Shown: piece by piece, positions 3,378-48,760 of the stretch | Layout: every line of letters begins with the position of its first letter | Numbering within the stretch: position 1 is the first letter of the stretch | Source: Streptomyces sp. SLBN-31 | GTDB lineage: Bacteria; Actinomycetota; Actinomycetes; Streptomycetales; Streptomycetaceae | Assembly: GCF_006715395.1 (NCBI RefSeq) | Contig: NZ_VFNC01000001.1 | Coordinates: forward strand, 3,038,001 to 3,102,000 | Direction: 5' to 3' | DNA length: 64,000 nt | Notes under the pieces: model-generated | Seen by the model: the letters and a program-made list of their open reading frames with translations, nothing else | Databases searched by the model: none | What the model was told of the DNA's origin: nothing | Program-made: the position numbers and the translations under genes

Positions 3378-3482
3378 GCCCCGCCTGTGTCCGCGCCGGG
3401 CCGGACGGTCACACTCCTCGGACGCGACGAGAATCACGGAAAAGGGTGTGACGATCCCGAAGGTGCCGGACACGAACCGAAC

Positions 3483-5650: not shown

Positions 5651-5706
5651 CCCGCCGGGGGCCGGGGTCGCCCGCGGCGGGCCCCGGCCCCTCGCCGTCT
5701 CTCCTC

Positions 5707-6072: not shown

Positions 6073-6243
6073 GGTGACCTCCTCCGAGGGCCGCGACCCT
6101 GTGCGGAGCGGGCCGCGCAGCCCCTCACCTTCGAGCCTCCTCCGCCCCGGCAGGCTCGGCAAGCGCAGCGCTCCGATGCGCCTGACGGGTGAGCGGGGCG
6201 GTCCGCCCGTGTCCGGCGGGCGTCCGCGGCCGTTGCCCAGAGC

Positions 6244-6528: not shown

Positions 6529-6544
6529 GCCGCTCCACGACCGA

Positions 6545-6567
6545 GGGCCGCCCGATCCGGGCGGCCC
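6545..6567 (+). terminator. hairpin terminator after the small secreted protein
   Basis: A perfect 10-bp inverted repeat, GGGCCGCCCG and CGGGCGGCCC, is separated by 3 nt (ATC) and followed by a T-containing stretch (GCTGTTTG). It lies between the plus-strand secreted protein and the convergent ABC exporter and could serve both. Confidence 0.75.
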
Positions 6568-6589
6568 CGCTGTTTGTGGGGGCGTGCGC

Positions 6590-8344: not shown

Positions 8345-8480
8345 GGCGCTCCTCGCGGGAAGTGGTGAGCACTCAGGCTACGTCGGCTCCTCCGCCGGGC
8401 GCGGGGCGCCGCCGCCGTTACCGATCAGTCACGTCTAGGGTCGGGAACACGGACACCGGCATACGGAAGGGTTCAGCACC

Positions 8481-10195: not shown

Positions 10196-10370
10196 GCGTG
10201 TGCGCCGTCGCCCGCCCGGAGCGAGGGTGAATCCTCGTCCGCGCCGGGTCGCCCGCGTGTGCGGCTCCGAACGAGTGGACTCGCCGGTATGCCCTGCGCA
10301 GGGCGCCTTCGCCCACCGGCCGCCGATGGTGATGTTGCCGTCCCGGCCCGTGACTGGAAGGCGCCCCCGC

Positions 10371-11570
10371 ATGCGACGTACCTTCCACCGCCGACTGCTC
10401 GCCGCGACACTGTTCGTGGCGTCACTGCTGGTCCCGACGGCGGTGACGCCCGCGACCGCCGTCCCGGCCGCGGCTGCCGATCCGTCCGGTCGGCACCACT
10501 GTCCGCCGGGCGGCCTCGGCCCCGGCGTGACCGCACGGCTGGACAGGACGATCGAGGACGTCCGTCGGCAGGCGGGCATCCCGGGTGCCGTCGTCGGACT
10601 GTGGATCCCGGGCAAGGGGTGCTACGTCCGCGCGAGCGGTGTCGCGGACAAGGCGACCGGCAGACCGATGACGCCCGATGTCCACGAACGGATCGGCAGC
10701 GAGACCAAGACCTTCACAGCGACCGCGCTGCTGGAGCTCGTGGACGAGCACCGCGTCCGGCTGGACGACCCGATCTCCCGTTACGTCCACGGCGTGCCGG
10801 ACGGCGGCCGGATCACCCTGCGGCACCTCGCCGAGATGCGCAGCGGCCTGTTCCCGTACAGCTCCGACCCGGACTTCGTCCATGACCTGCTGAGCGACCC
10901 GGAGCGCTCCTTCACCCCCCGGCAGTTGCTCGCCTACGCCTTCCGGCACGAGAACACCTTCGCGCCGGGCACGCAGTTCCAGTACTCCAACACCAACTTC
11001 ATCCTGCTGGGGATGGTGGTCGAGAAGGTCACCGGTCAGCGGCTCGCGGACTTCATCGACGCGAGGATCCTGCGGCCGGCCCGGCTGCGTCACACGCTGC
11101 TGCCCCAGGGGACGGAATTCCCCCGGCCGCATCCGCACGGCTACACCAACCAGACACTGAGCGGCGCGGTCGCCGACGCCACCTCCTGGAATCCCAGTTG
11201 GGCGTGGGCGGCCGGGGCGATGATCTCCGACCTGCACGATCTGCGCCGCTGGGCGGAGATCGTCGCCACCGGACGACTCCTCAGCCCCGGCACCCAGGCG
11301 CAGCGGCTCAGGATGCTGCCGACCGGTGTCCCCGGGCTCGGCTACGGCCTCGGCCTCTTCGACGCCAACGGGTGGATCGGCCACAACGGCTCCATCCCCG
11401 GCTACGAGACGGTGACCGTGTACCTGCCCTCGATGCGGGCCACCCTGGTCATCATGATCAACACGGACATCACCGTCCAGGCCCAGGAACCCTCCACCCT
11501 CCTCGCGCGGGCGATCACGGGAATCGTCACCCCGGACCACGTCTACGACGGCGCGGCCGCGGCACGCTGA
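10371..11570 (+). CDS. secreted serine hydrolase (class C beta-lactamase / D-Ala-D-Ala carboxypeptidase fold)
   Basis: A 399-residue exported protein with a signal peptide (MRRTFHRRLLAATLFVASLL, cleavage near residue 35). The serine beta-lactamase-fold motifs are present: SxxK in GSETKTF (the Ser acylates), YSN in FQYSNTNFILLG, and HNG in IGHNGSIPGYE. Streptomyces secrete many such enzymes related to the R61 DD-peptidase; activity on peptidoglycan peptides or on small esters is possible. The start was chosen for the GGAAGG 8 bases upstream and for the signal peptide. It forms a single unit 175 bp after the mscR operon. Confidence 0.85.
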   Translation: MRRTFHRRLLAATLFVASLLVPTAVTPATAVPAAAADPSGRHHCPPGGLGPGVTARLDRTIEDVRRQAGIPGAVVGLWIPGKGCYVRASGVADKATGRPMTPDVHERIGSETKTFTATALLELVDEHRVRLDDPISRYVHGVPDGGRITLRHLAEMRSGLFPYSSDPDFVHDLLSDPERSFTPRQLLAYAFRHENTFAPGTQFQYSNTNFILLGMVVEKVTGQRLADFIDARILRPARLRHTLLPQGTEFPRPHPHGYTNQTLSGAVADATSWNPSWAWAAGAMISDLHDLRRWAEIVATGRLLSPGTQAQRLRMLPTGVPGLGYGLGLFDANGWIGHNGSIPGYETVTVYLPSMRATLVIMINTDITVQAQEPSTLLARAITGIVTPDHVYDGAAAAR

Positions 11571-34336: not shown

Positions 34337-35284
34337 TCATTCCCGCAGGAAGAACTGGTGCTGGTCGGAGATCTGCTCGTACTCCTCCAGCCGGGCCTGG
34401 GTGCGTTCCGGATCGGCGTCGGTCATCGCCTGCAGCAGCGCGGCGGCGATCACGCCGGGCGCGGCGTAGGAGTCGAAGACCAGCCGGGAGCCCGTGCCGG
34501 TGGCGAAGACGACGTCGGCCTCGTCGGCGACCGGGCCGAGCGCCAGATCGGTGACCAGCGCGACCTTGAGCCCGGCACTGCGCGCGACCCGGACCGCCGT
34601 GAGCGTCTCCTGGGCGTGCCGGGGCATCGAGAACGCCAGCACCCAGGTGCCGCCCGCCTCGCGGGACTGCAGCAGCGAGTCGTAGGCGACGCTGCCGCCC
34701 CGGGTCACCAGCCGTACGTCGGGGTGGATACGGCGGGCGGCGTAGGCGAAGTACTCGGCGAGCGAGACCGAGATACGAAGCCCCAAAACGGTCAGCGGGG
34801 TGGACGCGGACAGCTCGCGGCCGATGTCGATGAGCTGGTCCGGGTCGGCGAAGTCGCGCCGCAGGTTCTCCAGGTTCTCGATCTCGGCGTCCACCGCCGC
34901 CTGCAGTTCGTTGCTGCCGTTCTCCTCGGTCGCGGCGGGCCCGCCGGCCAGGGTGCCCAGCGCGATCGACTGGAGCTTCTCGCGCAGCGCGGGGTAGCCG
35001 CTGAAGCCGACCGCCGCCGCGAAGCGTGTCACCGACGGCTGGCTCACGCCGACGCGTTCCGCGAGATCGGTGATCGACAGGAACGCCGCCTCGGTGATGT
35101 GCTCGATCAGGTACTGGGCGATGCGGCGCTGGCCGGGAGAGAGCCGGGGCCGGTCGAAGAGCGTCCTGAGCTGGGATGCCGGGGCGGCCTCCGCTTCGGG
35201 AGCGGTTTTGCCCGACGTGATCGAGGATGCCTGGGCGCGTGCCTGCTGCGGCGATGGCACCGGTGCGCCTCCTTTGTCTGCCAC
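34337..35284 (-). CDS. MurR/RpiR-family transcriptional regulator
   Basis: A 315-residue regulator. The first about 40 residues are low-complexity. The RpiR helix-turn-helix follows (about 45-110; LSPGQRRIAQYLIEHITEAA, then LAERVGVSQPSVTRFAAAVG). The C-terminal SIS domain (about 150-300) has TVLGLRISVSLAEYFAYAAR and VLAFSMPRHAQETLTAVRVA for a phosphosugar ligand. Such proteins control sugar-phosphate or amino-sugar genes. No sugar operon is adjacent; the closest candidate is the amino-sugar kinase block from 39.3 kb. Confidence 0.88.
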   Translation of the reverse strand: MADKGGAPVPSPQQARAQASSITSGKTAPEAEAAPASQLRTLFDRPRLSPGQRRIAQYLIEHITEAAFLSITDLAERVGVSQPSVTRFAAAVGFSGYPALREKLQSIALGTLAGGPAATEENGSNELQAAVDAEIENLENLRRDFADPDQLIDIGRELSASTPLTVLGLRISVSLAEYFAYAARRIHPDVRLVTRGGSVAYDSLLQSREAGGTWVLAFSMPRHAQETLTAVRVARSAGLKVALVTDLALGPVADEADVVFATGTGSRLVFDSYAAPGVIAAALLQAMTDADPERTQARLEEYEQISDQHQFFLRE

Positions 35285-35384
35285 AGTGCTTCAACATAGC
35301 TCACGCACGGTCGTGACCAGGGCTTGCACAAGGGCAACGGGCCCCCGGCGGACGGACCCTGGCAGTGCCCGCCACAGGCTCGGG

Positions 35385-37073
35385 TCACCGACGGTAGATC
35401 GTGATCGAGTGGCCGACCTCGTCGATCGGGCGACTGCTGTCGATCAGGGTGCGCAGCCGCCCGCGCGCCTTGTCGACCGCCGAGTCCGACACGACGAGCA
35501 GTCCGTGCACCTGACGGGGTGCCACCTGCCGCGGATCGGCGGCGTCGATCCCGTAGTACGACGGCACGCCACTGCCCTTGTACACCAGCCAGACCCGCTC
35601 GCCCCGGTACCGCTCCCGGAGCCGGTCGGCGAGCCTGCCCAGATCCTGCCCCCAGTCGACGTTGGAGTCGTGCAGCCGCAGATAGGTCTTGTCCGGACCG
35701 CCGAACGCCTCGTTGGAGTACGGCAGATAGTAGGGGAACGTCCGCAGCGAGCTGACCGCGACGAACAGCACCAGGACCCCGGTCGCGAGGAACGCCCACC
35801 GCCGTCGTACGGCGAGCACACAGCCGGCCGCCACCGCCAGGAACATCGGCACGAAGACGGCGTAGCGGGTCCCGAAGTCCCGCGAGCCGGTCATGGCCGA
35901 GGCCAGCAGCGCGGCGGGCGGCACCAGCACATAGGGCGCGGCCGGCCGCAGCCGCCGTACCGCCACCACCGAGGCGGCACCGGCCGCCCACAGCACCAGC
36001 ATGCCGAGCGGCGTCTTCACCAGCAGCGCGGCCGGCAGGTAGTACCAGCGGGAGCCGGTGTACAGCTGCCCGAACAGGAAGCCCTGCCACGGATACCGCT
36101 CCAGCCCGAACTGGACGCGCATCCCGTCCAGATACGACTCCGGGAACGGCAGCAGCCCCACGAGCAGCCCCTTCAGCCCGTGCACGGCGGGCACCCGCTG
36201 CCCCGCGGCCGACCATCGCAGCCGCGGATCGACCACCAGGTACGACAGCCATACGACGGCCACTCCGGCCACCGCCAGGACCGCCGCCCCCGCCGCGGCC
36301 CGCCGCAGCGCCCGCCGGCGGTCCCCGCGCTCCGCCGCCCACACCGACCAGGCGGCCAGTGCCATCAGTACCGGTACCGCCGGCAGCACGCTCATCTTGG
36401 TCGCCAGTCCCGCGCCGAGCGCCAGGCCGCCCAGCGGCACGTACAGCCGGGGGCGTCGCCGGGCCCGCCACAGCAGCCAGGCGGACGTCAGCACGAACCC
36501 CGCGGCCGGTACGTCCAGCGTCGCCAGCGAACCGTGCGCGATGACGTCGGGGGAGAGGGCGTACAGGGCCAGGGCCACCGAACCGGCCGCGGCGCCCGCC
36601 AGTTCACGGGCGAAGGCGAACACCACCAGCCCGAAAAGCAGGGTCAGCACGATCATCGGCAGCCGGGCCCAGAACATCAGCCGCCAGGGGTCGTTGCCGG
36701 ACTCGTACAGCAGATGGCGCGCGTACTGCGTCTGGTCGCCCCGGTAGGCGGTGTCGACGTGCGGATCGGCGACCGCCACTCCGGCGGCGACGATCAGCTT
36801 GCCCAGCGGCGGATGCTCCGGGTTGAGCCGGACGCGGTGCTCGTGCAGGTAGTCGGCGGCCGTGGCGACGTAGATCGGCTCGTCGATCGTCGGTGTCTGC
36901 TGCACGGCGGCGGTGACCATCGCGGCCGCCATCTGCCCGAGCAGGACCACCACCAGCAGGGGCACCAGCCACCGTCGGGGCCGGCGGGCGGCAGGGGTCG
37001 TCCGCGGCGGGTGCCGCTCCTCGTCGTCGCGTGGGCCCGGTGCGAGGACCGAGTGCTGTTCGTGCGCCATCAT
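35385..37073 (-). CDS. GT39-like polyprenol-phosphate-dependent mannosyltransferase-type membrane protein
   Basis: A 562-residue integral membrane protein with about 11 spans of the GT-C fold. The first external loop has the DE motif TIDEPIYVATAADYL (about residue 66), followed by NPEHPPLGKLIVA, both typical of dolichyl-phosphate-mannose-protein mannosyltransferase relatives. The C-terminal part (about 420-562) is soluble and includes DSNVDWGQDLGRLADRLRER. Substrates would be a polyprenyl-phosphate sugar and a protein or lipid acceptor outside the membrane. ATG at 37073 or 37070 is equally possible. A hairpin separates it from the upstream haloperoxidase-like gene. Confidence 0.82.
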   Translation of the reverse strand: MMAHEQHSVLAPGPRDDEERHPPRTTPAARRPRRWLVPLLVVVLLGQMAAAMVTAAVQQTPTIDEPIYVATAADYLHEHRVRLNPEHPPLGKLIVAAGVAVADPHVDTAYRGDQTQYARHLLYESGNDPWRLMFWARLPMIVLTLLFGLVVFAFARELAGAAAGSVALALYALSPDVIAHGSLATLDVPAAGFVLTSAWLLWRARRRPRLYVPLGGLALGAGLATKMSVLPAVPVLMALAAWSVWAAERGDRRRALRRAAAGAAVLAVAGVAVVWLSYLVVDPRLRWSAAGQRVPAVHGLKGLLVGLLPFPESYLDGMRVQFGLERYPWQGFLFGQLYTGSRWYYLPAALLVKTPLGMLVLWAAGAASVVAVRRLRPAAPYVLVPPAALLASAMTGSRDFGTRYAVFVPMFLAVAAGCVLAVRRRWAFLATGVLVLFVAVSSLRTFPYYLPYSNEAFGGPDKTYLRLHDSNVDWGQDLGRLADRLRERYRGERVWLVYKGSGVPSYYGIDAADPRQVAPRQVHGLLVVSDSAVDKARGRLRTLIDSSRPIDEVGHSITIYRR

Positions 37074-37167: not shown

Positions 37168-39096
37168 TCACCGCTTCAGGAGTCGTACCGACAGACCTTC
37201 CGCCGTGTAGACGGGTACGGCCCGCAGACCCTCGGAGTTCAGCTCCACGCGGTCGAATCGGCCGCTCAGCCGGGGCGCGCACAGCACGCGCACCGTGTCG
37301 CCCGCGACCGGCGGCCGGTCGGCGTCGAGCACCAGCGACAGCACACCGCCCGCGCCCAGCAGCGCCCGGCGCGTCACCTCAAGGGCGGGCTCGTGGCCCG
37401 AGCGCAGCGTCAGCTCCAGCGTGGCGGACTCCTGGGAGTACGTGCCGTGCACCTGCACCGGCCGCGGCACCCGCAGCGTGCCGCCGGACACCCGCACATC
37501 GCCGTGCCCGAGCGCGTGGGACGAGGCGGCGACCAGCACGCCGTCCCGCACCACGGTGCCGCCGGTGTACTTGTTGTGGCCGGTCAGAGTGAGTGTGCCG
37601 CTGCCCAGCTTGGTGAGTCCGCCGTCGCCGTCGATGTCGTTGCGCCAGCTGTCGGCCGCGCCGAAGCCGCCCGCCGCCGCGTCCAGCGTGACGGTCACGT
37701 CGGAGTCGAAGGCGCCGTAGCCGTCCGCCGCGGTGAACAGGTCGAGTCGGCCCCACTGCTCGAAGCCGTCCAGCAGGACGTACCCCGACGGCAGCGCGGT
37801 GGTCCTCAGCACCTCGCGCCGCTGTTCGGCGCTCAGGTACGGCAGCCGTGTCTCCAGCAGCACCTCGGCGCCCTTGGGCACGGTCAGCGGTGTGCCACGG
37901 CCCTGCCGGGTCAGCACGTACGTCAGCCGGGGCCGCACCGCGCGGGCGTTGGCGTCCCGGTCGCCGTAGGCGTCTCCGGCGCCGGGGTGCGCGTAGGCGA
38001 ACAGGGAGTCGGCGGTGGTGCCCGTCTGCCCGGTGAAGTAGGCCAGTGCCTGGGCGCGGGCGGCTGCCTTGAGGCCGGCGTTCGCCGGGTCGGCCAGGGT
38101 GGCGGCGGCCAGGGCGGTGGCCATGATGCGGCCGCCCATCACGTCGACCGTGGAGTGCATGCCGGCCATGATCCGGGTGTGGCTGAGCTCGAAGGCGCGG
38201 GTGACCAGCTCCTGGAAGCGCTCCGGCACGGCGTAGGCGTAGGCGAGGCCCGCCAGGTGGAAGGCGTTGGTGTGGCCGCTGGGGAAGCCGCCGTCGTCCG
38301 TGGGAGAGGTGCTGCGCTGGCGCAGCAGCTGGGGCGCGACGACCACCTCGGAGTCGTATACGGGGTAGCCGAGCGCGTCCGTCGCGCCGGTGTCGACGAC
38401 CTCGCTGTCCTCGTTCATCCGCCACGGGCGCGGGTACTGGTAGGCGTACTTGGACGGGTTGCCCGACGCCCAGTTGCCGCACACCGTGTCGACCAGTTCG
38501 GCCACCTTGCCGAGCGCGGAGTCGTGCGAGCCGGCGCCGAGCGCGGAGCCGGCCGGGGCACCGGCGGGCACGGCGTCGTCGATCTTGGTCGGAGGGGTGC
38601 CGTCGGGAGCGCTGGTGATCGAGGTGACCGCCTTGGCGCCCGCCTTGTAGAGGTCGGACAGCGGGCCCAGGCCCGCGATCATCGCGTAGCTCTGGTGCTG
38701 GCGGTCGTAGAGGAAGGCCTCCTTCGCCTGCGCGTCCGTCCGGGCGCCGGTGAGGCGGGCGCAGTAGCGCATGTTGGCGCGCAGCACCTCGGGCATGAGC
38801 GGCGTGCCGGTGTTCCAGGCGCCGCCCGTCTTCCATGTCCGCGCGAACCCGCCGAGGACCCGAACGACCGCGTTGGTCTCCGGGGTCAGGTTCGCCATGA
38901 CGTTGGTCTTGTAGTCGTCGACGAACGCGGCGGCGGAGCCGGCGGCCTTGGCGTCGGCGGCGCCCAGCCAGGAGACGAACGTGGGCGCGGCCAGGACACC
39001 GGCCGAGGCGCCCAGGGAGGTCTTGAGGAAACCCCTTCTGCCGACGGAGGGTCGGCCGTTCGACGAAGGGGAGCGGTGCCCGGCGGATGACGGCAT
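37168..39096 (-). CDS. TAT-exported PAP2/vanadium-haloperoxidase-type phosphatase fused to a beta-strand repeat tail
   Basis: A 642-residue protein with a twin-arginine signal (GRRGFLKTSLG, about residues 19-29). The PAP2 core shows all three motifs: K-x6-RP in KYAYQYPRPWRMN, PSGH in GGFPSGHTNAF, and R-x5-H-x3-D in RIMAGMHSTVDV. This fits class A acid phosphatases and vanadium haloperoxidases. After about residue 400 comes a beta-rich region with an autotransporter-associated strand repeat (GGLTKLGSGTLTLTGHNKYT, then GGTVVRDGVL), and then a C-terminal tail. That repeat is normally known from Gram-negative autotransporters. GAGAGG lies 9 nt before the ATG. Confidence 0.85.
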   Translation of the reverse strand: MPSSAGHRSPSSNGRPSVGRRGFLKTSLGASAGVLAAPTFVSWLGAADAKAAGSAAAFVDDYKTNVMANLTPETNAVVRVLGGFARTWKTGGAWNTGTPLMPEVLRANMRYCARLTGARTDAQAKEAFLYDRQHQSYAMIAGLGPLSDLYKAGAKAVTSITSAPDGTPPTKIDDAVPAGAPAGSALGAGSHDSALGKVAELVDTVCGNWASGNPSKYAYQYPRPWRMNEDSEVVDTGATDALGYPVYDSEVVVAPQLLRQRSTSPTDDGGFPSGHTNAFHLAGLAYAYAVPERFQELVTRAFELSHTRIMAGMHSTVDVMGGRIMATALAAATLADPANAGLKAAARAQALAYFTGQTGTTADSLFAYAHPGAGDAYGDRDANARAVRPRLTYVLTRQGRGTPLTVPKGAEVLLETRLPYLSAEQRREVLRTTALPSGYVLLDGFEQWGRLDLFTAADGYGAFDSDVTVTLDAAAGGFGAADSWRNDIDGDGGLTKLGSGTLTLTGHNKYTGGTVVRDGVLVAASSHALGHGDVRVSGGTLRVPRPVQVHGTYSQESATLELTLRSGHEPALEVTRRALLGAGGVLSLVLDADRPPVAGDTVRVLCAPRLSGRFDRVELNSEGLRAVPVYTAEGLSVRLLKR

Positions 39097-39344: not shown

Positions 39345-40244
39345 TCACAGCAGCGAACGCGCCAGCGCCACCGCGCCCTCGACCGGCGGCACCCGCAGCG
39401 GCTGCGGGCGGACTCCGGGCAGGGAGGCGGCGAGCGACGAGGCGAACGCGTCGTACAGGGCGGGCTGGTTCAGGATCGTGCCGCCGGCGACCACGACGTC
39501 GTCCACCGGGAGCCCGCGGGCCGCGAGCCGTTCCACGAGTGCGGCGAGCGAGCGCCCGGCCTCCGCGATCACGGCGCGGGCGACGCGGGAGCCCGCCTCG
39601 GCGGCCGCGAACACCACCGGGGCGTGCCGGCCCCATTCCGCGGAGACGTCCCGGGCACCCTCCAACGCGGCCCCGAGCGCGGGCACTTCGCCGACGCCGA
39701 ACGCGGCGACGAGACGGAGGGCGAGGTCGTCGGGTTCCTCGCCCCGGTCGTGGGCGGCCCAAACCGCGCGCGCCGCCTCGCGGACGAGCCCGGCCGCGCC
39801 GCCCTCGTCGCCGAGGACCGCGCCCCAGCCGCCGACCTGGACGGGGGTGCCGTCGGCCAGTCGGCCCACGGCGACGGAGCCGGTGCCGGCCACCAGGCCG
39901 ACGGCCTTGTCCAGTCCGGCCGCGGGTACGAGGAGTTCGGCGTCGCCCACGACCAACGCGGGCGCGTCGAAGTGCAGTTGCAGTGCGGTGCGGATCTGCT
40001 CGCACTGGCGTGGGGTCTCGCAGGCGTGCCCGCCGACGGCCAGCGCGGACGGGCGGGTGCGCGCGGGGAGGGCCTCGGCGACCAGCGCGGCCAGCCAGCC
40101 GGCCGCGGCCACGGGGTCGTGCGGCCGCCAGCCACTGCTGGACCGGACGTGATCGGCCACGGGGTCGTGCCCCGCCAGGGCGCGGAGGTGGGTCTTGGTG
40201 CCACCCACGTCGATGCCGACCACGAGAGGCGTGAAGTCCTGCAC
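39345..40244 (-). CDS. BadF/BadG-type N-acetylglucosamine (amino-sugar) kinase
   Basis: A 299-residue ASKHA-fold kinase. The phosphate-binding loop is GIDVGGTKTHLRA (about residues 10-22), the second is GLVAGTGSVAVG (about 118), and GGWGAVLGDEGGAAGLV is typical of the GlcNAc-kinase branch of the BadF/BadG family. It should phosphorylate an amino sugar, most likely GlcNAc, with ATP. It is divergent from a ROK regulator. A strong promoter at 40383-40411 is overlapped by a perfect inverted repeat. It therefore probably belongs to the same regulon as the ABC operon that follows the regulator. Confidence 0.82.
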   Translation of the reverse strand: MQDFTPLVVGIDVGGTKTHLRALAGHDPVADHVRSSSGWRPHDPVAAAGWLAALVAEALPARTRPSALAVGGHACETPRQCEQIRTALQLHFDAPALVVGDAELLVPAAGLDKAVGLVAGTGSVAVGRLADGTPVQVGGWGAVLGDEGGAAGLVREAARAVWAAHDRGEEPDDLALRLVAAFGVGEVPALGAALEGARDVSAEWGRHAPVVFAAAEAGSRVARAVIAEAGRSLAALVERLAARGLPVDDVVVAGGTILNQPALYDAFASSLAASLPGVRPQPLRVPPVEGAVALARSLL

Positions 40245-40373
40245 GGAACCTCTTTCGTCGTTGCGCTGTGCTGCGACGGCGGGCGAACCGTGCCTGGTCA
40301 GAAGCAGGTTGAAGCACTCGCGAAGCCCCGGGACGGGCCTCTGGACGGAACACGGCAGGCGAGTACCGTGAAG

Positions 40374-40397
40374 TTCGTTAGGAAGTTAACTAACGAA
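40374..40397. promoter_or_regulatory. inverted-repeat operator between kinase and ROK regulator
   Basis: TTCGTTAG (40374-40381) and CTAACGAA (40390-40397) form a perfect 8-bp inverted repeat with an 8-nt AT-rich spacer. It covers the -10 box and start region of the kinase promoter. It is the likely ROK operator. Confidence 0.7.
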
Positions 40398-40411
40398 GTA
40401 CAGTGCGTCAA
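40383..40411 (-). promoter_or_regulatory. promoter of the amino-sugar kinase
   Basis: Read on the minus strand, TTGACG (40411-40406), a 17-nt spacer and TAACTT (40388-40383). This is a good housekeeping-sigma promoter. Transcription would start near 40376, about 130 nt before the kinase ATG. Confidence 0.65.
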
Positions 40412-40524
40412 GAGGCTTCGCGCACCCGACCGACCGAGCTGCCCCGCGGACGGGGGCGGTACCGCGTGACGCCGGGCATCCCATCGCCGAGTCCCCCGCG
40501 GTCAGTACGACGGGGGAGCGGCCC

Positions 40525-41688
40525 GTGACCTGCGGGAGAACTGTGGAACACGACGTGGTGCGAGCCCCGCGCCTGACCGAGAGCGCCGGCGCGGTGTTCG
40601 CCGTGCTGGCCCGGGCGGGCAGCGCGACCCGGCCGCAGCTCGCGAGCCTGGCGGGCCTGTCCAAGCCGACGGTGTCCTCCGCCGTCGCGGAACTGGAGAA
40701 CGCCGGGCTCGCAGCCCACTCCGGCACGGCGTCCAGCGGCACCGGCCGCAGCGCCGCCGTCTACCGGCTGGGCCCGGCCGCCGGCGCCGTCCTCGCCGTC
40801 GACCTCGGCCCCGCGCTCACGCGGGTGCGCGGCTGCGCCCTGGACGGCACCCTGCTCGCCGAGGCCACCGAGTCCCGGGAAGAGGCCGCCGAGGCCGTCC
40901 GGGAGGCCCTGGACGCGCTGCCCGCGGGCGCCCCGCTGCGCGCCATCGTGGTCGCCGTCGGTGACGTCACCGCGCGCGACGGCGAGGGCGCGGGCGTGCG
41001 GCCGGCCACCGCCAAGGCCGGGCCCGTCTTCGACGCGGTGACCGTCGCACTGCCGCCCGGGGTGCCCGTCCACCTCGAGAACAACGTCAACTGCGCGGCG
41101 CTCGCCGAGTTGCACGAGGGCGCCGCGCACGGCCGCGAGACCTTCGGCTACCTGCGGATCGGCGTCGGTATCGGTCTCGGTGTCGTCATCGGCGGCCAGG
41201 TGCTGCGCGGGGCCAACGGCGCCGCGGGCGAGGTCGCCCGGCTGCCCTACCCCTGGGACGACGGCCGCGAGCCGCGGCACGAGGCCCTGGAGGAGCACGT
41301 CGGCGCCCGCTCGTTGCTGCGCCGGGCCGCACAGACCTGGCGCGAGGAGGACGGTCCGTGCCCGCGCACCACGGAGGAGCTGTTCTCCCTCGCCGGCGAG
41401 GGCCGGCCCGCGGCCCGTGCGGTGGTGGGCCGGCACGCCGCGGACATAGGCCGGCTCGCCGCCGCCGTGACCGCCGTACTGGACCCGGGGCTCATCGTGC
41501 TCGGTGGCAGCACAGGCGCGTATCCGCAGCTCCTGCCGGGTGTGCGGGCCGAGCTGGAGCGGCTGAGCTGGCCCACCGAGGTGGTCAGCAGCACGCTGGG
41601 CGATCTGGGCACCGTCGTGGGTGCCGCCCGGCTCGCGGTGGCCCGTGGAGTCCAAACCGTGACCGAGGCCGCGCATGCGAAGGATTGA
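40525..41688 (+). CDS. ROK-family transcriptional regulator of the sugar operon
   Basis: A 387-residue regulator starting at GTG 40525 with GGGGGAG just upstream. The winged helix (about 20-75) contains SATRPQLASLAGLSKPTVSS. The ROK domain shows VHLENNVNCAALAELHEGAA and RIGVGIGLGVVIGGQVLRGA. The zinc motif CxCGxxGC is absent; after GAAGEVARLPYPWDD the sequence lacks those cysteines. It stands between the amino-sugar kinase and the ABC operon, and its stop codon lies inside the -35 box of the ABC promoter, so its transcription and the operon's initiation may interfere. It should respond to an imported sugar. Confidence 0.87.
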   Translation: MTCGRTVEHDVVRAPRLTESAGAVFAVLARAGSATRPQLASLAGLSKPTVSSAVAELENAGLAAHSGTASSGTGRSAAVYRLGPAAGAVLAVDLGPALTRVRGCALDGTLLAEATESREEAAEAVREALDALPAGAPLRAIVVAVGDVTARDGEGAGVRPATAKAGPVFDAVTVALPPGVPVHLENNVNCAALAELHEGAAHGRETFGYLRIGVGIGLGVVIGGQVLRGANGAAGEVARLPYPWDDGREPRHEALEEHVGARSLLRRAAQTWREEDGPCPRTTEELFSLAGEGRPAARAVVGRHAADIGRLAAAVTAVLDPGLIVLGGSTGAYPQLLPGVRAELERLSWPTEVVSSTLGDLGTVVGAARLAVARGVQTVTEAAHAKD

Positions 41689-41714
41689 CGGCTTCCGACT
41701 CGGTCTGCCAATGT
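41685..41714 (+). promoter_or_regulatory. candidate promoter of the sugar ABC operon
   Basis: TTGACG (41685-41690) and CAATGT (41709-41714) with an 18-nt spacer. The TGA of the ROK gene is embedded in the -35. Just downstream, AAGCGCTT (41721-41728) is a perfect palindrome of the type recognised by LacI/ROK proteins. Confidence 0.55.
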
Positions 41715-41720
41715 CCGGAC

Positions 41721-41728
41721 AAGCGCTT
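41721..41728. promoter_or_regulatory. AAGCGCTT palindrome downstream of the ABC promoter
   Basis: An 8-bp perfect palindrome located 7 nt after the -10, close to the predicted transcription start, where a repressor would block initiation. Confidence 0.4.
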
Positions 41729-41735
41729 TCTAAGT

Positions 41736-41771
41736 CGGCCGGGACGCCGGCTTGGGTTGGCGTCCCGGCCG
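41736..41771 (+). terminator. 13-bp hairpin in the leader of the ABC operon
   Basis: CGGCCGGGACGCC (41736-41748) and GGCGTCCCGGCCG (41759-41771) pair perfectly around a 10-nt loop. It can end the ROK transcript or act as an attenuator in the roughly 240-nt leader of the operon. No U-tract follows. Confidence 0.6.
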
Positions 41772-41962
41772 TACGCGAAGTACGGCAGCCGCACGAGGGC
41801 GTGCTTGTGCGACGACGGCCCTCGGGGCCGGGGATCCCACCCGTCGAGGCGAAGCGGCCGGGCGAGGCCGCACCCCCGGAAAGCGAAATTTCCTGCAAAA
41901 TGCACCCGTGCCGCCTCGATCGGCGCCGTGCTCCGTCTCCTACGACGAAAAAGGGATCGAAG

Positions 41963-43294
41963 ATGACCATTGTGGGTGTGCGGCGCTCCCGCCGACTCGG
42001 CCGCGGCGGTATACGCCGTGTGGTTCCCCTCGCTGCCGTGGCCACGGCAGGTGCCCTGCTGCTCTCCGCCTGCGGGGGTTCGGGGTCCGGCTCGGGCGGT
42101 ACGTCCAAGTCGCTGACGTTCTGGATCTCCACGGTTCCGGGGCAGGACGCGGGCTGGAAGAAGCTGGTCGCGCAGTACAAGAAGGAAGCCGGCGTCAAGG
42201 TCAAGCTCGTCAACATCCCCTACGACGGCTACACGACGAAGCTGCACAACGCCGCGCAGGCGAACTCCCTGCCCGACGTCGCGGCCGTCCCGGCGCTGGA
42301 CCCGATCTGGTCGAACAAGCTGGTCGACCTCAGCTCCATCGCCAACAACAAGGCGAACAACATCAACGCCAACTTCCTGGCGAAGGACTCGTCCGGGAAG
42401 GTGCTGTCCATCCCCTCGGACGTCACCGCGTCCGGCCTGTTCATCAACAAGTCCCTGTTCGAGAAGGCCGGGGTTTCCTTCCCCACCTCGCCGCAGAAGA
42501 CCTGGACCTGGACCGAGTTCATCAAGGCGGCCAACAAGGTCCGCGAGAAGACCGGCGCCAAGTACTCCCTGACGTTCGACCAGTCGCCCTCGCGCCTTCG
42601 CGCCATGGTGTACGAACTCGGCGGCAAGTACGTCCACGCCGACTCCTCCGGCAAGTTCTCGGTGGACGCCGCGACCAAGAAGGCCGTGAACACCTTCGTC
42701 GGCTGGAACGACGACAAGACCATGCCGAAGTCGGTGTGGACCAGCGGCGCCGACCCGTCCGCCATGTTCCAGAGCGGTGACGTCGTCGCCTACTGGTCCG
42801 GCGTGTGGCAGGTCGCCGCCTTCTCGGAGTCCATCAAGAAGTTCGACTGGGCGAGCGTCCCGACCCCCGCCGAGCCGGTGCAGGCCAGTGACGTCAACAG
42901 CGGCGGCATGATGGTCGGGTTCAACAACAACGGCGCCGCGGCCACCGCCGCGAAGAAGTTCATGTCCTGGCTGTACGAGCCGGCCCACTACACCGAGCTG
43001 TGCGCGGCATCCGGGTTCCTGCCCGTCGAGAGCGGTCTGACCCCGAAGTACCCCTTCAAGTCCGAGGCGGCGCAGGCGGCGTTCAAGCTCTACAACGAGG
43101 AGATCCCGCTCTACGCCCCGATCTCCGGCTACTTCAACAGCGCGCAGACGAACTGGGTGCTGAAGGGCAAGAGCCTCACCGAGGACCCGACCAAGACGGA
43201 ACTCGGCAAGGCGATCAACGGCCAGCAGTCGGCCGACAAGGCCCTGGAGAACATCGTGGCCGGCTACAACCAGCAGGTCGGCGGCGCGTCGTAG
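41963..43294 (+). CDS. sugar ABC transporter substrate-binding lipoprotein
   Basis: A 443-residue cluster-B type binding protein. The lipoprotein signal ends with the lipobox LLLSAC (Cys 37), followed by a Gly/Ser linker. The mature part has the hallmarks of oligosaccharide-binding proteins: LTFWISTVPGQDAGWKKLVA, VVAYWSGVWQVAAF and AAKKFMSWLYEPAHYTELCA. The start ATG has AAGGGA 7-8 nt upstream. It is the first gene of an operon with two permeases and two unknown cytoplasmic proteins. The ligand is unknown; the amino-sugar kinase nearby suggests an amino-sugar-containing oligosaccharide. Confidence 0.9.
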   Translation: MTIVGVRRSRRLGRGGIRRVVPLAAVATAGALLLSACGGSGSGSGGTSKSLTFWISTVPGQDAGWKKLVAQYKKEAGVKVKLVNIPYDGYTTKLHNAAQANSLPDVAAVPALDPIWSNKLVDLSSIANNKANNINANFLAKDSSGKVLSIPSDVTASGLFINKSLFEKAGVSFPTSPQKTWTWTEFIKAANKVREKTGAKYSLTFDQSPSRLRAMVYELGGKYVHADSSGKFSVDAATKKAVNTFVGWNDDKTMPKSVWTSGADPSAMFQSGDVVAYWSGVWQVAAFSESIKKFDWASVPTPAEPVQASDVNSGGMMVGFNNNGAAATAAKKFMSWLYEPAHYTELCAASGFLPVESGLTPKYPFKSEAAQAAFKLYNEEIPLYAPISGYFNSAQTNWVLKGKSLTEDPTKTELGKAINGQQSADKALENIVAGYNQQVGGAS

Positions 43295-43300
43295 GCCGAC

Positions 43301-43338
43301 GGGCCGGGCGGCGGGGCCGAGACCCCGCCGCCCGGCCC
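43301..43338 (+). terminator. intercistronic hairpin after the binding-protein gene
   Basis: A 16-bp perfect stem (43301-43316 with 43323-43338) with a 6-nt loop. Such hairpins after binding-protein genes usually stabilise the upstream message or partly terminate it, giving more binding protein than permease. Confidence 0.75.
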
Positions 43339-43408
43339 CGGCCCATGCGATGCCGGGCTCACGGCCCGAGCCCACAGCAATCCATTCCACCAGCACGGAG
43401 TCAGGAAG

Positions 43409-44320
43409 ATGACAAAACGCGCCTCGGCCGTGTCCGCGAGCCCGCCCAGGAGACGCAGTAAGTACGTTCTCGCGCCGCTCGTCCTCATCGCGGCCAACGT
43501 CGTGCTCTTCGCGCTGTTCTTCGTCTGGCCGGCGGTGATCGGGCTCGTCTACTCCTTCACGAACTACACGGGTGTGGGGGCGTTCCAGTTCGTCGGACTG
43601 GACAACTACCACAACCTGTTCGGGGACTCCACGTTCTACGACGCGCTGACGCGGACGCTGCTGTACGCCGTGCTCTTCGTGCCGCTGAACTTCGCGCTCG
43701 CGCTGGCCGCCGCCAACCTGGTGGTGAGCAAGCACGCCAAGGGCACGTCGGTCGCCCGCGTCATCTTCTTCATCCCGTGGCTGCTGTCGCCCATCGTCGT
43801 GGGTGTCCTGTGGCGGTGGCTGTTCGGTGAGAACTTCGGACTGGTCAACTACGTCATCGAGAAGCTCGGCGGAAGCGCCGTCCCGTGGCAGTCGAACGCG
43901 GACCTGTCCCTGCTCGTGGTCGTGATGGCCGCGTCCTGGGCCTGGACGGGCTTCTCGATGCTGCTGTTCATAGCGGCGATCAAGAACGTGCCCACCTCGT
44001 ACTACGAGGCGGCCTCCCTCGACGGAGCGGGCCCCTGGCGGCAGTTCGTCAGCATCACCCTGCCGAGCATCGCGCCCACCTCGTTCATCGTCATCCTGCT
44101 CAACACGATCAACGCGATGAAGGAATACCCGGTGTTCGTCGCCCTCAACAACGGCGGACCCGGAACGTCGAACAACCTGCTCGTCCAGTACATCTACGAG
44201 ACCGGCTTCAAACGGGGGCAGATCGGCTACGCGAGCGCCGCGTCGTTCGTGCTCATGCTCATTCTGATGGCCGTCGCGATCATCCAGCTGATCGTCAACC
44301 GGCGGGTGGAGAACCGATGA
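43409..44320 (+). CDS. sugar ABC transporter permease (first)
   Basis: A 303-residue, six-span MalF-type permease. The EAA loop is EAASLDGAGPWRQFVSITLP (about 205-224), which docks the ATPase. Conserved WPAVIGLVYSFTNYT follows the first span, and GPGTSNNLLVQYIYETGF is present near the end. It overlaps the second permease by ATGA. No ATPase gene is found in the operon; in Streptomyces such systems use the shared ATPase MsiK. Confidence 0.92.
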   Translation: MTKRASAVSASPPRRRSKYVLAPLVLIAANVVLFALFFVWPAVIGLVYSFTNYTGVGAFQFVGLDNYHNLFGDSTFYDALTRTLLYAVLFVPLNFALALAAANLVVSKHAKGTSVARVIFFIPWLLSPIVVGVLWRWLFGENFGLVNYVIEKLGGSAVPWQSNADLSLLVVVMAASWAWTGFSMLLFIAAIKNVPTSYYEAASLDGAGPWRQFVSITLPSIAPTSFIVILLNTINAMKEYPVFVALNNGGPGTSNNLLVQYIYETGFKRGQIGYASAASFVLMLILMAVAIIQLIVNRRVENR

Positions 44321-45219
44321 CAACCACAGACATTCCTCGCCCTGTCGACGCCGGTCCCGGACGGGCCGTCGCCAAGAAGCGACCCCGCAAGACGAGCAGC
44401 GGCGGGCTGCGGCGGGCGGTGTCCGCGACGACCCTGCTGTGGATCCTGGCCTGCCTGTACGGGCTGCCGGTGCTGTGGTTCGTCCTCAGCTCCTTCAAGC
44501 CGGCCAGCGACCTGTTCTCCTATCCGCTGACGCTGGTACCGCACAACCCCACCCTGTCCGGCTTCAAGGCGGCGTGGGACAGCGCCAACTTCTCCCAGTA
44601 CTTCATCAACACGGCCATCGTGTGCGTGATCACAACGATCCTCACGGTGGGCGTCAGCTGCTGCACCGGCTACGCGCTGGCCAAGTACGACAACATGTGG
44701 CTCAAGGCCTTCTTCCTCTGCATCCTGGCCACCACGATGCTGCCGGGCGAGGTCATGCTCGCCCCGGAGTTCCTGGTCGTGCGCAACCTCGGCCTCTACA
44801 ACTCCTTCGCGGGCATCATCCTGCCGGCCGTGCTCACGGCGACCGGATGCTTCATGTTCCGCCAGTTCTTCCTCACGGTTCCCGACGAACTCGTGGAGGC
44901 CGCGCGCATCGACGGCGCCCGCGAACTGGCGATCTTCCTGCGGATCATGGTGCCGCTGTCCCGGCCCATCATGCTGACGCTCGCCATCCTGTCCTTCCAG
45001 TGGCGGTGGAACGACTACATCTGGCCGCTGCTGATGCTCAACGACCCCAACAAGTTCACCGTGCAGATCGGCATCCAGAGCATCGTCGGCGCGCAGAACA
45101 TCAACTGGTCGGTCCTGCTCGGCGCGTCGGTCATCTCCATGATCCCGCTGATCGCCATCTTCCTTGTCTTCCAGCGCTATGTGATGGGCGCCGACATCAA
45201 CGCCGGACTGAAGGACTGA
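44317..45219 (+). CDS. sugar ABC transporter permease (second)
   Basis: A 300-residue, six-span MalG-type permease. It has the EAA motif EAARIDGARELAIFLRIMVP (about 193-212), YALAKYDN at the third span, and the C-terminal FVFQRYVMGADINAGLKD-like ending (LVFQRYVMGADINAG). Its ATG overlaps the stop of the first permease. It forms the membrane channel together with that protein. Two bases after its stop a TTG starts the next gene, so the four genes after the binding protein are tightly co-translated. Confidence 0.92.
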   Translation: MTTTDIPRPVDAGPGRAVAKKRPRKTSSGGLRRAVSATTLLWILACLYGLPVLWFVLSSFKPASDLFSYPLTLVPHNPTLSGFKAAWDSANFSQYFINTAIVCVITTILTVGVSCCTGYALAKYDNMWLKAFFLCILATTMLPGEVMLAPEFLVVRNLGLYNSFAGIILPAVLTATGCFMFRQFFLTVPDELVEAARIDGARELAIFLRIMVPLSRPIMLTLAILSFQWRWNDYIWPLLMLNDPNKFTVQIGIQSIVGAQNINWSVLLGASVISMIPLIAIFLVFQRYVMGADINAGLKD

Positions 45220-45221
45220 CC

Positions 45222-46922
45222 TTGCCCGCTCCGATCGACCGCGAGTTCGTCCGCGCGGCAGCGCTCGCCGCCGACGGGTCGGCCGATCCGTCGGCGGAAT
45301 TCATCGAGCCGCACCGCGCCCTGGCCCGGCGGGTGAAGACCCTGGTCGCGGCGTACCGCTCGCCGGAGTCGGCCCTGCACGGCAGCGAGCGGGCCGTCGC
45401 CGCCGCGCTGACCCACCTCCGTGCCCTGCGGTCCGCGCAGACCGGGTCCGGCCTCTTCGCGGGCGGCGACAACGTGCAGTCGCCGCCGGACTCCGCGTTC
45501 ACCGTCAACGACGTGTGCGACGCGCACGTCCTCGCCGCGGCCGCGGGGCCCGAATTGGCCGACGTCACGGCAGCGCTGGCCGAGATCGCCGGCGCCGCCA
45601 CCGAAAGCCTCCTGGCCGGTGGCGTGCACACCCCCAACCACCGCTGGGAGCTGTCCGCGGCGCTGGCCCGGCTGCACCGATCGTTCCCCGACGACCGGCT
45701 GCTCGTCCGCGCCGAGGAGTGGCTCGCCGAGGGCGTCGACATCGACGCCGACGGCATGTACTCGGAACGCAGCGCCGTCTACGCGTCCATCGTGACCAAC
45801 CCGGCGCTGCTGTTGCTGGCCGAGGTGCTCGGGCGTACCGACCTGGTGGACGCCGTCGAACGCAACCTCACCGCGACCCTGGACCTGATCAGGCCGGACG
45901 GCACGGTGGAGACCGTCCACTCGCGCCGCCAGGACCAGAGGCAGTCGTTCGCGCTGTGGCCCTACCTGCCGCACTACCGGCTGCTCGCGATCCGCACCGG
46001 CCGGGGCGACTTCGCCCGCGCTGCCCGCCTGGCGGCCGCCGACGGCATCCACGACCCCGACCTGCTCGCCCAGACCCTCCTCACCCCGGACCTGTGCCGC
46101 GCCCTGCCGGCCCCGGACGCGGAGCAGCTCCCGCGCGACCGGTACCTCCCCACCGCACGCCTCGCCGCACGCGCCTCGGCCACCGCGCACACGGTGGTGT
46201 ACGGCGGCTCCGACGTGCCCGAGCACCGGCGCATCCGCTCGGGCCTCGCCTGCAACCCCACCTTCCTGCGCCTGTTCGCCGGTGCCGCCGTCCTCGACGC
46301 GGTCCGCCTCTCAAGGGGGTTCTTCGACCTGGGCCCGTTCCGCGCCGCCGACATGCAACGGCTCGCCGACGGCCGCTACCTGCTCACCGAAACCCTCTCG
46401 GCCGCCTACTACCAGCCGCTCCCGCCCGACCACCGGCGGGACGACGGCGCCTACCGGATGGCGGACGAGGGACGCTTCTCAGCCGCGATGGCCTTCCCGG
46501 ACCGGCCCCGGGACGAGGTCTCCCACACGACCCGTGTGCAGGTGGACCTGCGGGAGGACGGGGCCGACCTGCGGATCGACATCAGCGGCCCGCCGGTGCC
46601 CTGGGCCCTCGAACTGACCTTCCGGCCGGGCGGCGAGCCGCAGGGCGCCGTACCGCTCGGTGACGGTAGCTGGTGCCTGACGACCGAGCCGTTGACCTAC
46701 CGCGTCGGCGACGACGAGATCCGGGTCGAGGCCGCCGTCGAGACGGGTGAACCGCTCGCCGGACCGGACCGGAGCGACGTACTGCGCTACGACCCGGGGC
46801 AGGACCACACCGTGGTGGGCGGTACCGACGCGACGACCGGGAACCGCGTCTACATCGGTGGACATGGCTCGCACACACTGACCGTCGCACTGCGCGCGAC
46901 CACCTCAGGCATGAAGGACTGA
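45222..46922 (+). CDS. cytoplasmic protein of unrecognised family, helical-toroid plus beta-sandwich features (566 aa)
   Basis: A 566-residue protein without signal peptide or membrane span, starting at TTG 45222, 2 bp after the second permease; AAGGA precedes it at the right distance. Residues about 25-350 are a run of amphipathic helices with TPNHRWELSAALARLHRSFP, DADGMYSERSAVYASIVTNP and RPDGTVETVHSRRQDQRQSF, which recalls the alpha/alpha toroid of heparinase II/III and related lyases. Residues about 380-566 are beta-rich. The His, Arg, Tyr and Asp in these motifs could be catalytic. In the operon it should act on the imported oligosaccharide in the cytoplasm. The lyase or hydrolase role is inferred. 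Confidence 0.65.
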   Translation: MPAPIDREFVRAAALAADGSADPSAEFIEPHRALARRVKTLVAAYRSPESALHGSERAVAAALTHLRALRSAQTGSGLFAGGDNVQSPPDSAFTVNDVCDAHVLAAAAGPELADVTAALAEIAGAATESLLAGGVHTPNHRWELSAALARLHRSFPDDRLLVRAEEWLAEGVDIDADGMYSERSAVYASIVTNPALLLLAEVLGRTDLVDAVERNLTATLDLIRPDGTVETVHSRRQDQRQSFALWPYLPHYRLLAIRTGRGDFARAARLAAADGIHDPDLLAQTLLTPDLCRALPAPDAEQLPRDRYLPTARLAARASATAHTVVYGGSDVPEHRRIRSGLACNPTFLRLFAGAAVLDAVRLSRGFFDLGPFRAADMQRLADGRYLLTETLSAAYYQPLPPDHRRDDGAYRMADEGRFSAAMAFPDRPRDEVSHTTRVQVDLREDGADLRIDISGPPVPWALELTFRPGGEPQGAVPLGDGSWCLTTEPLTYRVGDDEIRVEAAVETGEPLAGPDRSDVLRYDPGQDHTVVGGTDATTGNRVYIGGHGSHTLTVALRATTSGMKD

Positions 46923-46927
46923 TCCCC

Positions 46928-48760
46928 GTGCACCTCACGCACCAGCGCGGACCGCTGCACGACCTGCCCGACAACCCGGAGGCGTACGACGCCGTCCTCG
47001 CCGACGTCGTCGAGCAGGCGCTGGCCCGGCTCACCCCGGAGGGCAACCTCGAACACCCCGACTGCGTCGACGACATCGGAGACACCTCGCTCGGCATCAC
47101 CTCCCTGCTCGCGTTCGCCTGGCAGCGCGGCAAGGACCCGCGGCTGCCGGAGGCGGTGCGCCGCAGCCTCGCCTTCCACCTGCGCGAGCGGGTGTACGTC
47201 GAGGACAACCCCGGCTACCCGAACCTGAGGGTCCGCAACTCCGGTCTGCCGTACGCCCGTTACGTCCTCGAAGCCGGCGCCCATCCCATCGGCGACTGGC
47301 CGAGCACGGCGTGGGCGCTGCTCCAGGCAGTCAACGTCCTGGACGCCGCCGAGGGCCTGGTCGAGGACGAACAGCGGGCCGGACTGCTGGAGTTGGCCCG
47401 GGGCTACTGGCGCTGGCTGACCGAGGCGACCTTCTTCAACCCGCAGGAGGCCGGCAACCAGGCCATCGGCTGCGTGGTCGGCGGTCTGATGCTGGCCCGC
47501 CATCTGCCCGACGCCGAGGGCGAGTCGGTGCGCGCCCGGGCGCTTCAGCTGTACACCGACGAGATCCGCGCCCACCGCGTCCGCGACCGGGGCGCCCTGC
47601 TGCCCCCGGAGCACGGCGGCGCCTACGACAACAACTACGGCCCGATCTCCCTGTCCTTCCTCGCCCAGGCCCACCGGGTCAGCGGCGAGGAGATGTTCGC
47701 CGAGGACGGCGACGCGCTCGCCCGCTACATCGACGCCCGGCTGACCAATGGCGGCTTCGACAACGGCGGCCCGCGCTACAGCGAGCAGCACTCCGCCTTC
47801 GAATCCGTCCTGGGCCTCAGGTACTTCGGCGCCCGCATCGGCTCCGACCTGGGCCGCTACCGCGGTGACAGCCGCTGGGCCCGGTACGCGTGCAAGCCGG
47901 ACGGTGGGGTCGACGGTCACTTCGCCTGGATGCTGGTCTGGCAGATCCAGGACAGCACGCGCTGGCACCGCGAGCCGAGCCCCACGCCGGCCCGGCACCA
48001 ACTGCGCGCGGGCACGGTCTCGGTGGCCTTCGACGACCGCATGACGCCGGCCGTAGTAGAGGCCGCCGGTAACTACTGGCTGGCCGCCGCCGTCGGCCGT
48101 CAGCACGGCTTCGGTCCCGTCACCGACGGCTTCCTGCTGTGCCGCCCCATGGGCGCGGTCCGCGTCCGCGACCTCAGGGCGGACGGCCTGACGGCCAAGC
48201 TGGTCACCAAGCCGGTCGTCGGCCGCGACCATGTCCTGCGGCACGTGCGGTCCCTGTACGTCACCGACGGCGAGACCCTGTGGACCACGGTGGCCGTCGA
48301 ACGCCTCCACGGGACGCCGTACCTGCTGGCCGGCCTGCCGTACGCCGAGGACGACGGCGACCGGGTACGGCGCGTCGCCGCGGGGCCGGTCGCCTCGGCG
48401 GGCGCCCTGCGCCTGACCCACCCGCGGGCCACGGGCGCCGAGCACTTCGACGCCCGCGCCGAACTCCTCCAGCAACAGGCCGCGTTCGCGCTCGCGGCCG
48501 ACCCGCGCGGCTACGGCAACCCGGACGAGGGCTGGCGGCACCTGGTGAGCTCGACCGCCCTGGAGGCCGGCCCGGTCCCTGGCACCCCGGACGACCTGCA
48601 CGTCTTCGCCGTCCGCTACGGCTCCGAGACGCCGATCACGGTCTCGGTGGAGCGGAGCGGCGAGGAACTCACGCTCACCACGGGGCAGTTCACGGCCGTG
48701 ATCGGACCGGACGACGAGAAGGGGGAGCCCCGGTTGGCGCTGCGCGCGGTCAGTCGGTGA
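46928..48760 (+). CDS. second large cytoplasmic protein of the operon, helical-toroid type (610 aa)
   Basis: A 610-residue protein starting at GTG 46928, 5 bp after the previous stop, with GAAGGA upstream. No export signal. The N-terminal about 330 residues are helical with conserved-looking blocks DDIGDTSLGITSLLAFAWQR, FNPQEAGNQAIGCVVGGLML, GGAYDNNYGPISLSFLAQAH and NGGPRYSEQHSAFESVLGLR, again like an alpha/alpha toroid. The C-terminal about 250 residues are beta-rich. Overall architecture parallels the preceding gene though sequence similarity is low. Probably a second lyase or hydrolase for the same substrate; family not recognised. Its 3' end overlaps the convergent kinase gene by 11 bp. 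Confidence 0.65.
   Translation: MHLTHQRGPLHDLPDNPEAYDAVLADVVEQALARLTPEGNLEHPDCVDDIGDTSLGITSLLAFAWQRGKDPRLPEAVRRSLAFHLRERVYVEDNPGYPNLRVRNSGLPYARYVLEAGAHPIGDWPSTAWALLQAVNVLDAAEGLVEDEQRAGLLELARGYWRWLTEATFFNPQEAGNQAIGCVVGGLMLARHLPDAEGESVRARALQLYTDEIRAHRVRDRGALLPPEHGGAYDNNYGPISLSFLAQAHRVSGEEMFAEDGDALARYIDARLTNGGFDNGGPRYSEQHSAFESVLGLRYFGARIGSDLGRYRGDSRWARYACKPDGGVDGHFAWMLVWQIQDSTRWHREPSPTPARHQLRAGTVSVAFDDRMTPAVVEAAGNYWLAAAVGRQHGFGPVTDGFLLCRPMGAVRVRDLRADGLTAKLVTKPVVGRDHVLRHVRSLYVTDGETLWTTVAVERLHGTPYLLAGLPYAEDDGDRVRRVAAGPVASAGALRLTHPRATGAEHFDARAELLQQQAAFALAADPRGYGNPDEGWRHLVSSTALEAGPVPGTPDDLHVFAVRYGSETPITVSVERSGEELTLTTGQFTAVIGPDDEKGEPRLALRAVSR

Follow-up and report, generated by a model that had tools for sequence, protein, structure and literature searches.

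A conserved Streptomyces sugar-import operon encoding two proteins with putative polysaccharide lyase-like folds

Gene content and control regions of the locus

The analyzed stretch of DNA (64,000 nucleotides of Streptomyces sp. SLBN-31, contig NZ_VFNC01000001.1, positions 3,038,001–3,102,000; hereafter, the window) contains a putative sugar-import operon with two large genes, E1 and E2. A gene for a BadF/BcrA-type, amino-sugar kinase-like sugar kinase (KIN, 39345–40244, minus strand) and a gene for a ROK-family regulator with a winged helix-turn-helix (40525–41688, plus strand; PF00480, 94.7 bits; MarR_2, 28.2 bits) diverge around an inverted repeat. The regulator gene is followed on the plus strand by the genes for a sugar-binding lipoprotein (SBP, 41963–43294; SBP_bac_1, 114 bits; lipobox LLSAC) and two ABC permeases, namely P1 (43409–44320; BPD_transp_1, 74.2 bits) and P2 (44317–45219; BPD_transp_1, 61.4 bits), which together are called importer A. 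Next to them are E1 (45222–46922; 566 amino acids (aa), TTG start) and E2 (46928–48760; 610 aa, GTG start). P1 and P2 overlap by 4 nucleotides (nt), and the gaps are 2 nt between P2 and E1 and 5 nt between E1 and E2, so the open reading frame calls bear out the layout, protein sizes and spacings given in the original prediction, which had been made from the letters alone. No signal peptide was seen by eye at the N-termini of E1 and E2. The operon itself contains no ATPase gene for the importer; SBP, P1 and P2 would presumably be powered by a shared ATPase, probably MsiK, which serves Streptomyces sugar importers that have no ATPase of their own. Among the papers listed by literature searches, in a library lacking most subscription papers, none dealt with these genes.

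The inverted repeat between the kinase and ROK genes (TTCGTTAGGAAGTTAACTAACGAA, 40374–40397) consists of TTCGTTAG, an 8-nt spacer and CTAACGAA, and is a probable ROK operator. It had been described as perfect, which holds for its 8-nt arms; when extended to 13 nt, the arms are 85% complementary. The pattern GTTAG-8 nt-CTAAC was found in all 75 kinase–ROK intergenic regions compared (74 loci and the window), and this conservation exceeds chance. Upstream of the SBP gene, a conserved 28-nt block (TCTGCCAATGTCCGGACAAGCGCTTTCT, 41704–41731, plus strand) was found, each base of which is kept in at least 95% of 76 regions; it may be a promoter or a second operator. Within the genome, the operator core (18 nt) and the block core (21 nt) each have a single site at up to 3 mismatches, and thus no distant target gene points to the substrate. 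The 28-nt block also contains two palindromes, TGTCCGGACA and AAGCGCTT, and is retained even where the importer behind it is replaced.

Predicted folds and candidate active sites of E1 and E2

A search of 5.8 billion proteins (7991 candidates scored) revealed at least 1167 homologues of E1; at least 477 homologues were found for E2. Among the 120 matches listed for each, the named ones were all from Streptomyces for E2, and for E1 they were Streptomyces "hypothetical protein" entries, one of which is also labeled "Heparinase II/III-like protein" in UniRef. A Streptomyces relative of E1 (locus L142, 40–43% identity), with a twin-arginine signal recognized by eye (Pfam TAT_signal, 14.1 bits, below the cut-off), was also used as a query. 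It gave at least 1292 homologues, including proteins of Kribbella and of a Roseiflexaceae metagenome-assembled genome (MAG), and 7 of its 120 matches listed bore the automatic labels "Heparinase" or "Heparinase II/III-like". Counting the source genome itself, E1 as a single sequence matched 3 of 296 phylum genomes, and an E1 profile matched 13 of 296 class genomes, which belong to 4 of 114 genera. The E2 profile matched 6 of 296 class genomes, all from one genus and two of them only partially. Two E1 homologues with 25–28% identity were found on records of Subdoligranulum variabile (Bacillota). A scan of viral contigs confirmed no E1 relative. One linear Streptomyces plasmid carries E1 and E2 together with the kinase, importer A and the phosphatase gene UP2 described below.

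No sequence family model searched claims either protein, in agreement with the earlier statement that neither could be assigned to a family: E1 and E2 had no Pfam match (PF07940, Hepar_II_III_C, included), no NCBIfam match and no phmmer match in the PDB at E ≤ 1. Scanning 53 members of the E1 family against Pfam and NCBIfam gave no lyase family, and 38 E2 sequences gave no lyase family in Pfam. In the PDB searches with E1, E2 and their alignments (phmmer, hmmsearch), the sole match below E 0.001 was the repeat protein 7rdr (E 1.8e-4, eight matches of 26 residues), which was attributed to chance, and nothing else was usable. A comparison of E1 with E2 using hhalign detected no sequence relationship (probability 1.6%). 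Comparing both by hhalign with PF07940 and with proteins of polysaccharide lyase (PL) family 8 taken from related genomes was blank, but the control comparison of PF07940 with PL8 was blank too and the reading frame of some of the proteins was probably wrong, so that this test was uninformative.

Modeling of E1 using AlphaFold led to a model with a predicted local distance difference test score (pLDDT) of 86.9, consisting of an (alpha/alpha) toroid followed by an antiparallel beta-sandwich, with full-length matches to solved lyases in Foldseek and VIA. The predicted fold of E1 is clearly like that of polysaccharide lyases. For E2 (pLDDT 72.9), Foldseek found lyases at 4.0e-9 but with a template modeling (TM) score of 0.38, alginate lyases being at the top of the list, and toroid-only rows ranked above lyases in VIA; the same two-domain fold is predicted here with moderate confidence. 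A toroid with a beta-domain had been proposed for both proteins, with structure prediction as the check, and this gave a lyase-like answer, clear for E1 and of moderate confidence for E2. It could be supposed that E1 and/or E2 use the same (alpha/alpha) scaffold as glycoside hydrolases (GH) or sugar isomerases instead (GH127-, GH88- or AGE-epimerase-like), with neutral or amino-sugar oligosaccharides as their substrates. We regard this as rather unlikely, since the full-length matches of E1 are lyases, which superpose better than GH127, its invariant N-H / Y-x-E...Y set resembles that of lyases, and a distant E1 homologue has a GH88 neighbor (locus L243, see below).

According to excerpts of two studies, lyases of the toroid fold use a catalytic Asn (or His), a Tyr and mostly a His of the beta-domain, and the Asn-to-Tyr spacing is 53–57 residues in PL12, PL17, PL33, PL35 and PL39, 59 in PL8 and 63 in PL23 (PMC12088678, PMC11848413). 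The beta-domain His is a feature of PL12, PL15, PL17, PL21, PL33, PL35 and PL39, and not of PL8. The candidate residues of E1 and E2 were placed from the order of the helices and the residue spacing rather than from a superposition of coordinates. In E1, these are N139, H140, Y180/Y187 and R235/R236, which are conserved without exception across the 88 family members aligned. N139 and H140 open the sixth helix of at least four residues, Y180 and Y187 lie before and in the next-but-one helix, respectively, and R235/R236 are located further on. A second alignment (53 sequences, with six proteins from other genera added) kept Y187 invariant and Y180 nearly so (Phe in locus L184). The Bacillota homologues keep the motifs HTPNHRW, ERS and RQD; R235 is Thr in one of them, and the Tyr is shifted by one column. 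E1 has no invariant beta-domain His: 75 of 88 members have one within residues 330–342, at a shifting position, and this stretch is missing in the two Bacillota homologues.

The E2 candidates N177, Y233/Y237 and H393 are kept in 119 of 119 close homologues, which means little because these are 82–95% identical to E2, and the position of H393 fits the beta-domain His of lyases by count only. Another register of E2 (N236, Y284 and F291, with a YSE motif common to E1) was set aside, since the helix count in both models aligns N177 and Y233/Y237 with N139 and Y180/Y187 of E1; it may nevertheless apply.

Conserved neighborhood and exchange of importers

Using E1, 80 Streptomyces-type loci were collected (the best 80 of 126 encoding a relative); as E1 was the bait, this survey speaks only for the linkage of the other genes to E1. 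All 74 loci in which the six genes could be identified are collinear in the order kinase–ROK–SBP–P1–P2–E1. The remaining six comprise three cut by contig ends and three lacking the kinase or both the kinase and ROK genes. The median gaps were 2 nt for P2–E1 and 51 nt for E1–E2 (5 to 91, one misjoined value aside). Outside Streptomyces, eight of nine profile matches were examined (five genomes, three families), and SBP–P1–P2–E1 was present in six of these loci, the exceptions being L181 and L185. A GH38 alpha-mannosidase gene was located between P2 and E1 in three of the six, all from one genus; a GH95 gene was found behind E1 in one, and a kinase relative nearby in two. No E2 match at E ≤ 1e-8 was found in any of the eight. 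The linkage of the large genes to the transporter, for which such a survey had been proposed, was thus found in many species, where they lie behind importer genes. Separately, E1-family genes were seen near a Gfo/Idh/MocA oxidoreductase gene in L142, L144, L184 and L185 (three of the oxidoreductases are 65–89% identical to that of L142), with a DUF6807 protein also at L142; this is perhaps a second pathway of the E1 family, with exported relatives.

In 150 Streptomyces genomes, a close E1 (at least 78% identity) was found in 25, only the 40–43% relative in 5, and an E2 match in 31. A manual count from the tables gave 20 close-E1 genomes in which E2 is matched (most of its length in 15, a remnant in 5) and 5 in which it is not; 11 genomes have E2 with no close E1. 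In total, 94 loci were classified. Besides the window and the 80 loci collected with E1, they comprise 13 from these genomes, covering each of the 11 that have E2 without a close E1 and two of the five that have E1 only. Importer A, E1 and E2 occur together in 61 of the 94, plus 3 with the importer cut at contig ends. Importer A and E1 occur with no E2 in 12 and with a broken E2 in 7 (three of them full-length with an in-alignment stop). E2 without E1 follows importer A in 2 loci and a different importer, B, in 8, and one locus has a lone E2 fragment. E2 remnants behind an intact E1 at L088, L099, L103 and L111 look like signs of E2 loss.

Of the suggestion that the two enzymes form one import pathway, their place behind the importer is supported and an obligatory joint chain is not, as each occurs without the other at the locus. 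The same observation is awkward for a two-step chain in which E1 or E2 would be a uronate C5-epimerase (dermatan sulfate epimerase-like) preparing the substrate for the other, the lyase; lyases are also the nearer matches for both proteins, and we consider this very improbable. A different question is whether E2 is needed at all. Among the 80 loci that have importer A and a full E1, E2 is absent or broken in 19, which would suit a dispensable second enzyme or a passenger beside the importer–kinase core. Against this, E2 is full-length in 74 of the 94 loci (61 with importer A and E1, 8 with importer B, 2 with importer A and no E1, 3 at contig ends) and is retained in all eight importer-B loci, where E1 is not, which makes an unneeded E2 unlikely in our opinion.

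In these eight loci (L147–L154), the place of importer A and E1 is taken by importer B (a YesO-like SBP and permeases), which is flanked by the same ROK and E2 genes and was never found together with E1 (0 of 8). Its identity to importer A is 28–32% for the SBP and 35–38% and 29–31% for the permeases. In all eight, the operator is free of mismatches and the upstream block has 0–1 mismatch in its 21-nt core. On a tree of the ROK proteins (88 loci), the importer-B state requires 8 changes, of which well-supported branches force at least 5, and its clustering is no better than that of shuffled labels; L151 is a long branch. We read this as the importer having been exchanged repeatedly, along with E1, downstream of a promoter that stayed in place. 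Alternatively, recombination or the transfer of larger segments among members of the genus may account for it.

On the kinase strand, the UP2 gene (37168–39096, minus strand) encodes a PAP2-type phosphatase (PF01569, 52.3 bits) that is likely associated with the locus. It adjoins the kinase gene at 77 of the 80 E1 loci, and a 58% identical homologue lies upstream of SBP in another actinomycete genus (L183). UP2 has a probable twin-arginine signal (RRGFLK, by eye) and a PATR repeat, which is typical of autotransporters, and its PDB relatives are acid phosphatases. Genes for an RpiR/SIS regulator and a PMT-type mannosyltransferase (34337–37073, minus strand) lie downstream of UP2.

Substrate, proposed pathway and comparison with known systems

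The closest solved protein to the importer-B SBP (from L149) is YesO (170 bits over query 109–508), followed by two solved proteins whose ligand is not stated (166 and 138 bits) and then by 2uvg (91 bits), an oligogalacturonide binder. YesO was crystallized with deltaGalUA-Rha-Gal, as stated in an excerpt of its description (PMC7596534). Since E2 serves behind both importers, uronate may be present in both substrates. The importer-A SBP is only distantly similar to solved proteins (7bvt best, 70 bits; YesO 32.5 bits). In L243 (Subdoligranulum, 3361–11458), one locus on a record named plasmid, a GH88 gene (289 bits) precedes the start of the E1 homologue by 39 nt. Because unsaturated uronates are what GH88 enzymes remove, this neighbor fits a lyase; GH2 and a heparinase-like protein (18 bits, below the cut-off of 24) are also encoded nearby. 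The other Bacillota locus, L244, gave no GH88 match. It weighs against a lyase pathway that no GH88 over the cut-off was found in the window's genome, so that an exo-acting lyase releasing free unsaturated uronate would be needed. The uronic-acid linkage, which the original prediction had called possible, thus gains indirect support from the YesO-like SBP beside E2 and from GH88 beside a distant E1 relative.

The only hint at an amino sugar is the kinase, whose family acts on such sugars. It was assigned to the BadF/BadG/BcrA/BcrD ATPase family (PF01869, 59.2 bits against a cut-off of 31.5), like the kinases of N-acetylmuramic acid (MurNAc) and N-acetylglucosamine (GlcNAc), one of which is its best solved relative (8zo3). 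This match is limited to 67.6 bits (E 1.4e-17), and the NagK equivalog NF046058 of NCBIfam scored 53.8 bits, below its cut-off of 370. The BadF type predicted for this kinase was confirmed, and its GlcNAc specificity was a guess from the family.

All these characteristics incline us to the view, which we hold to be somewhat probable, that the operon imports a short uronate-containing oligosaccharide that is cleaved in the cytoplasm by the lyase-like E1 and E2. The ROK protein would repress from the inverted repeat until the substrate arrives, and SBP–P1–P2, driven by a shared ATPase, would take up the oligosaccharide. E1, plus E2 where present, would then act as oligosaccharide lyases in the cytoplasm, breaking uronic linkages by beta-elimination, and the BadF kinase would phosphorylate the freed sugar. 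In E1, the pair N139/H140 could neutralize the carboxylate and Y187 could move the proton, with Arg235/236 nearby; E2 could use N177, Y233 or Y237, and H393. More speculatively, and as a possibility we put forward only tentatively, E1 and E2 may found two undescribed families of intracellular uronate lyases, with E1 (Actinomycetota, Bacillota and a Chloroflexota MAG) working without a beta-domain His. They would belong to a soil glycan pathway whose fixed regulatory and kinase core repeatedly swaps an importer-plus-E1 cassette for another importer, changing its substrate.

Excerpts of recent structural work on PL33 and PL35 indicate that uronate lyase families are still growing on the toroid fold (PMC12088678, PMC11848413), and each added family opens a substrate. 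More than 1000 E1 homologues have no family model in the libraries searched, and the operon, with its binding protein, kinase and regulator, is a handle on what they act on. The exchange of importers behind an unchanged operator provides a natural case for testing how the diet of a sugar operon shifts.

An importer combined with a cytoplasmic sugar-cutting enzyme and a kinase is a known kind of system; the new part is the enzymes and the importer exchange. The lyases with a toroid and antiparallel beta-sheet (PL8, PL12, PL15, PL17, PL21, PL33, PL35 and PL39) are alike in predicted fold over the whole length, strongly for E1 and moderately for E2, with a conserved candidate Asn and Tyr at places comparable in helix order and spacing and, in E2, a candidate beta-domain His at a place that fits by count. 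The differences are that Pfam, NCBIfam and PDB profile searches detect no sequence match for E1 or E2 and that E1 has no fixed beta-domain His. The PL15/PL17 oligo-alginate lyases, which can be cytoplasmic, resemble E1 and E2 in the proposed role of cutting imported uronate oligosaccharides, and alginate lyases head the Foldseek list of E2; however, the identity is about 10% and the window's operon has a BadF kinase and a ROK regulator. In the YesOPQ/YesR system for rhamnogalacturonan import and cytosolic cleavage in B. subtilis, uptake is likewise followed by a cytosolic enzyme acting on a uronic oligosaccharide, and the importer-B SBP beside E2 is a relative of YesO, whereas YesR is a GH105 hydrolase and importer A of the window belongs to another SBP subfamily.
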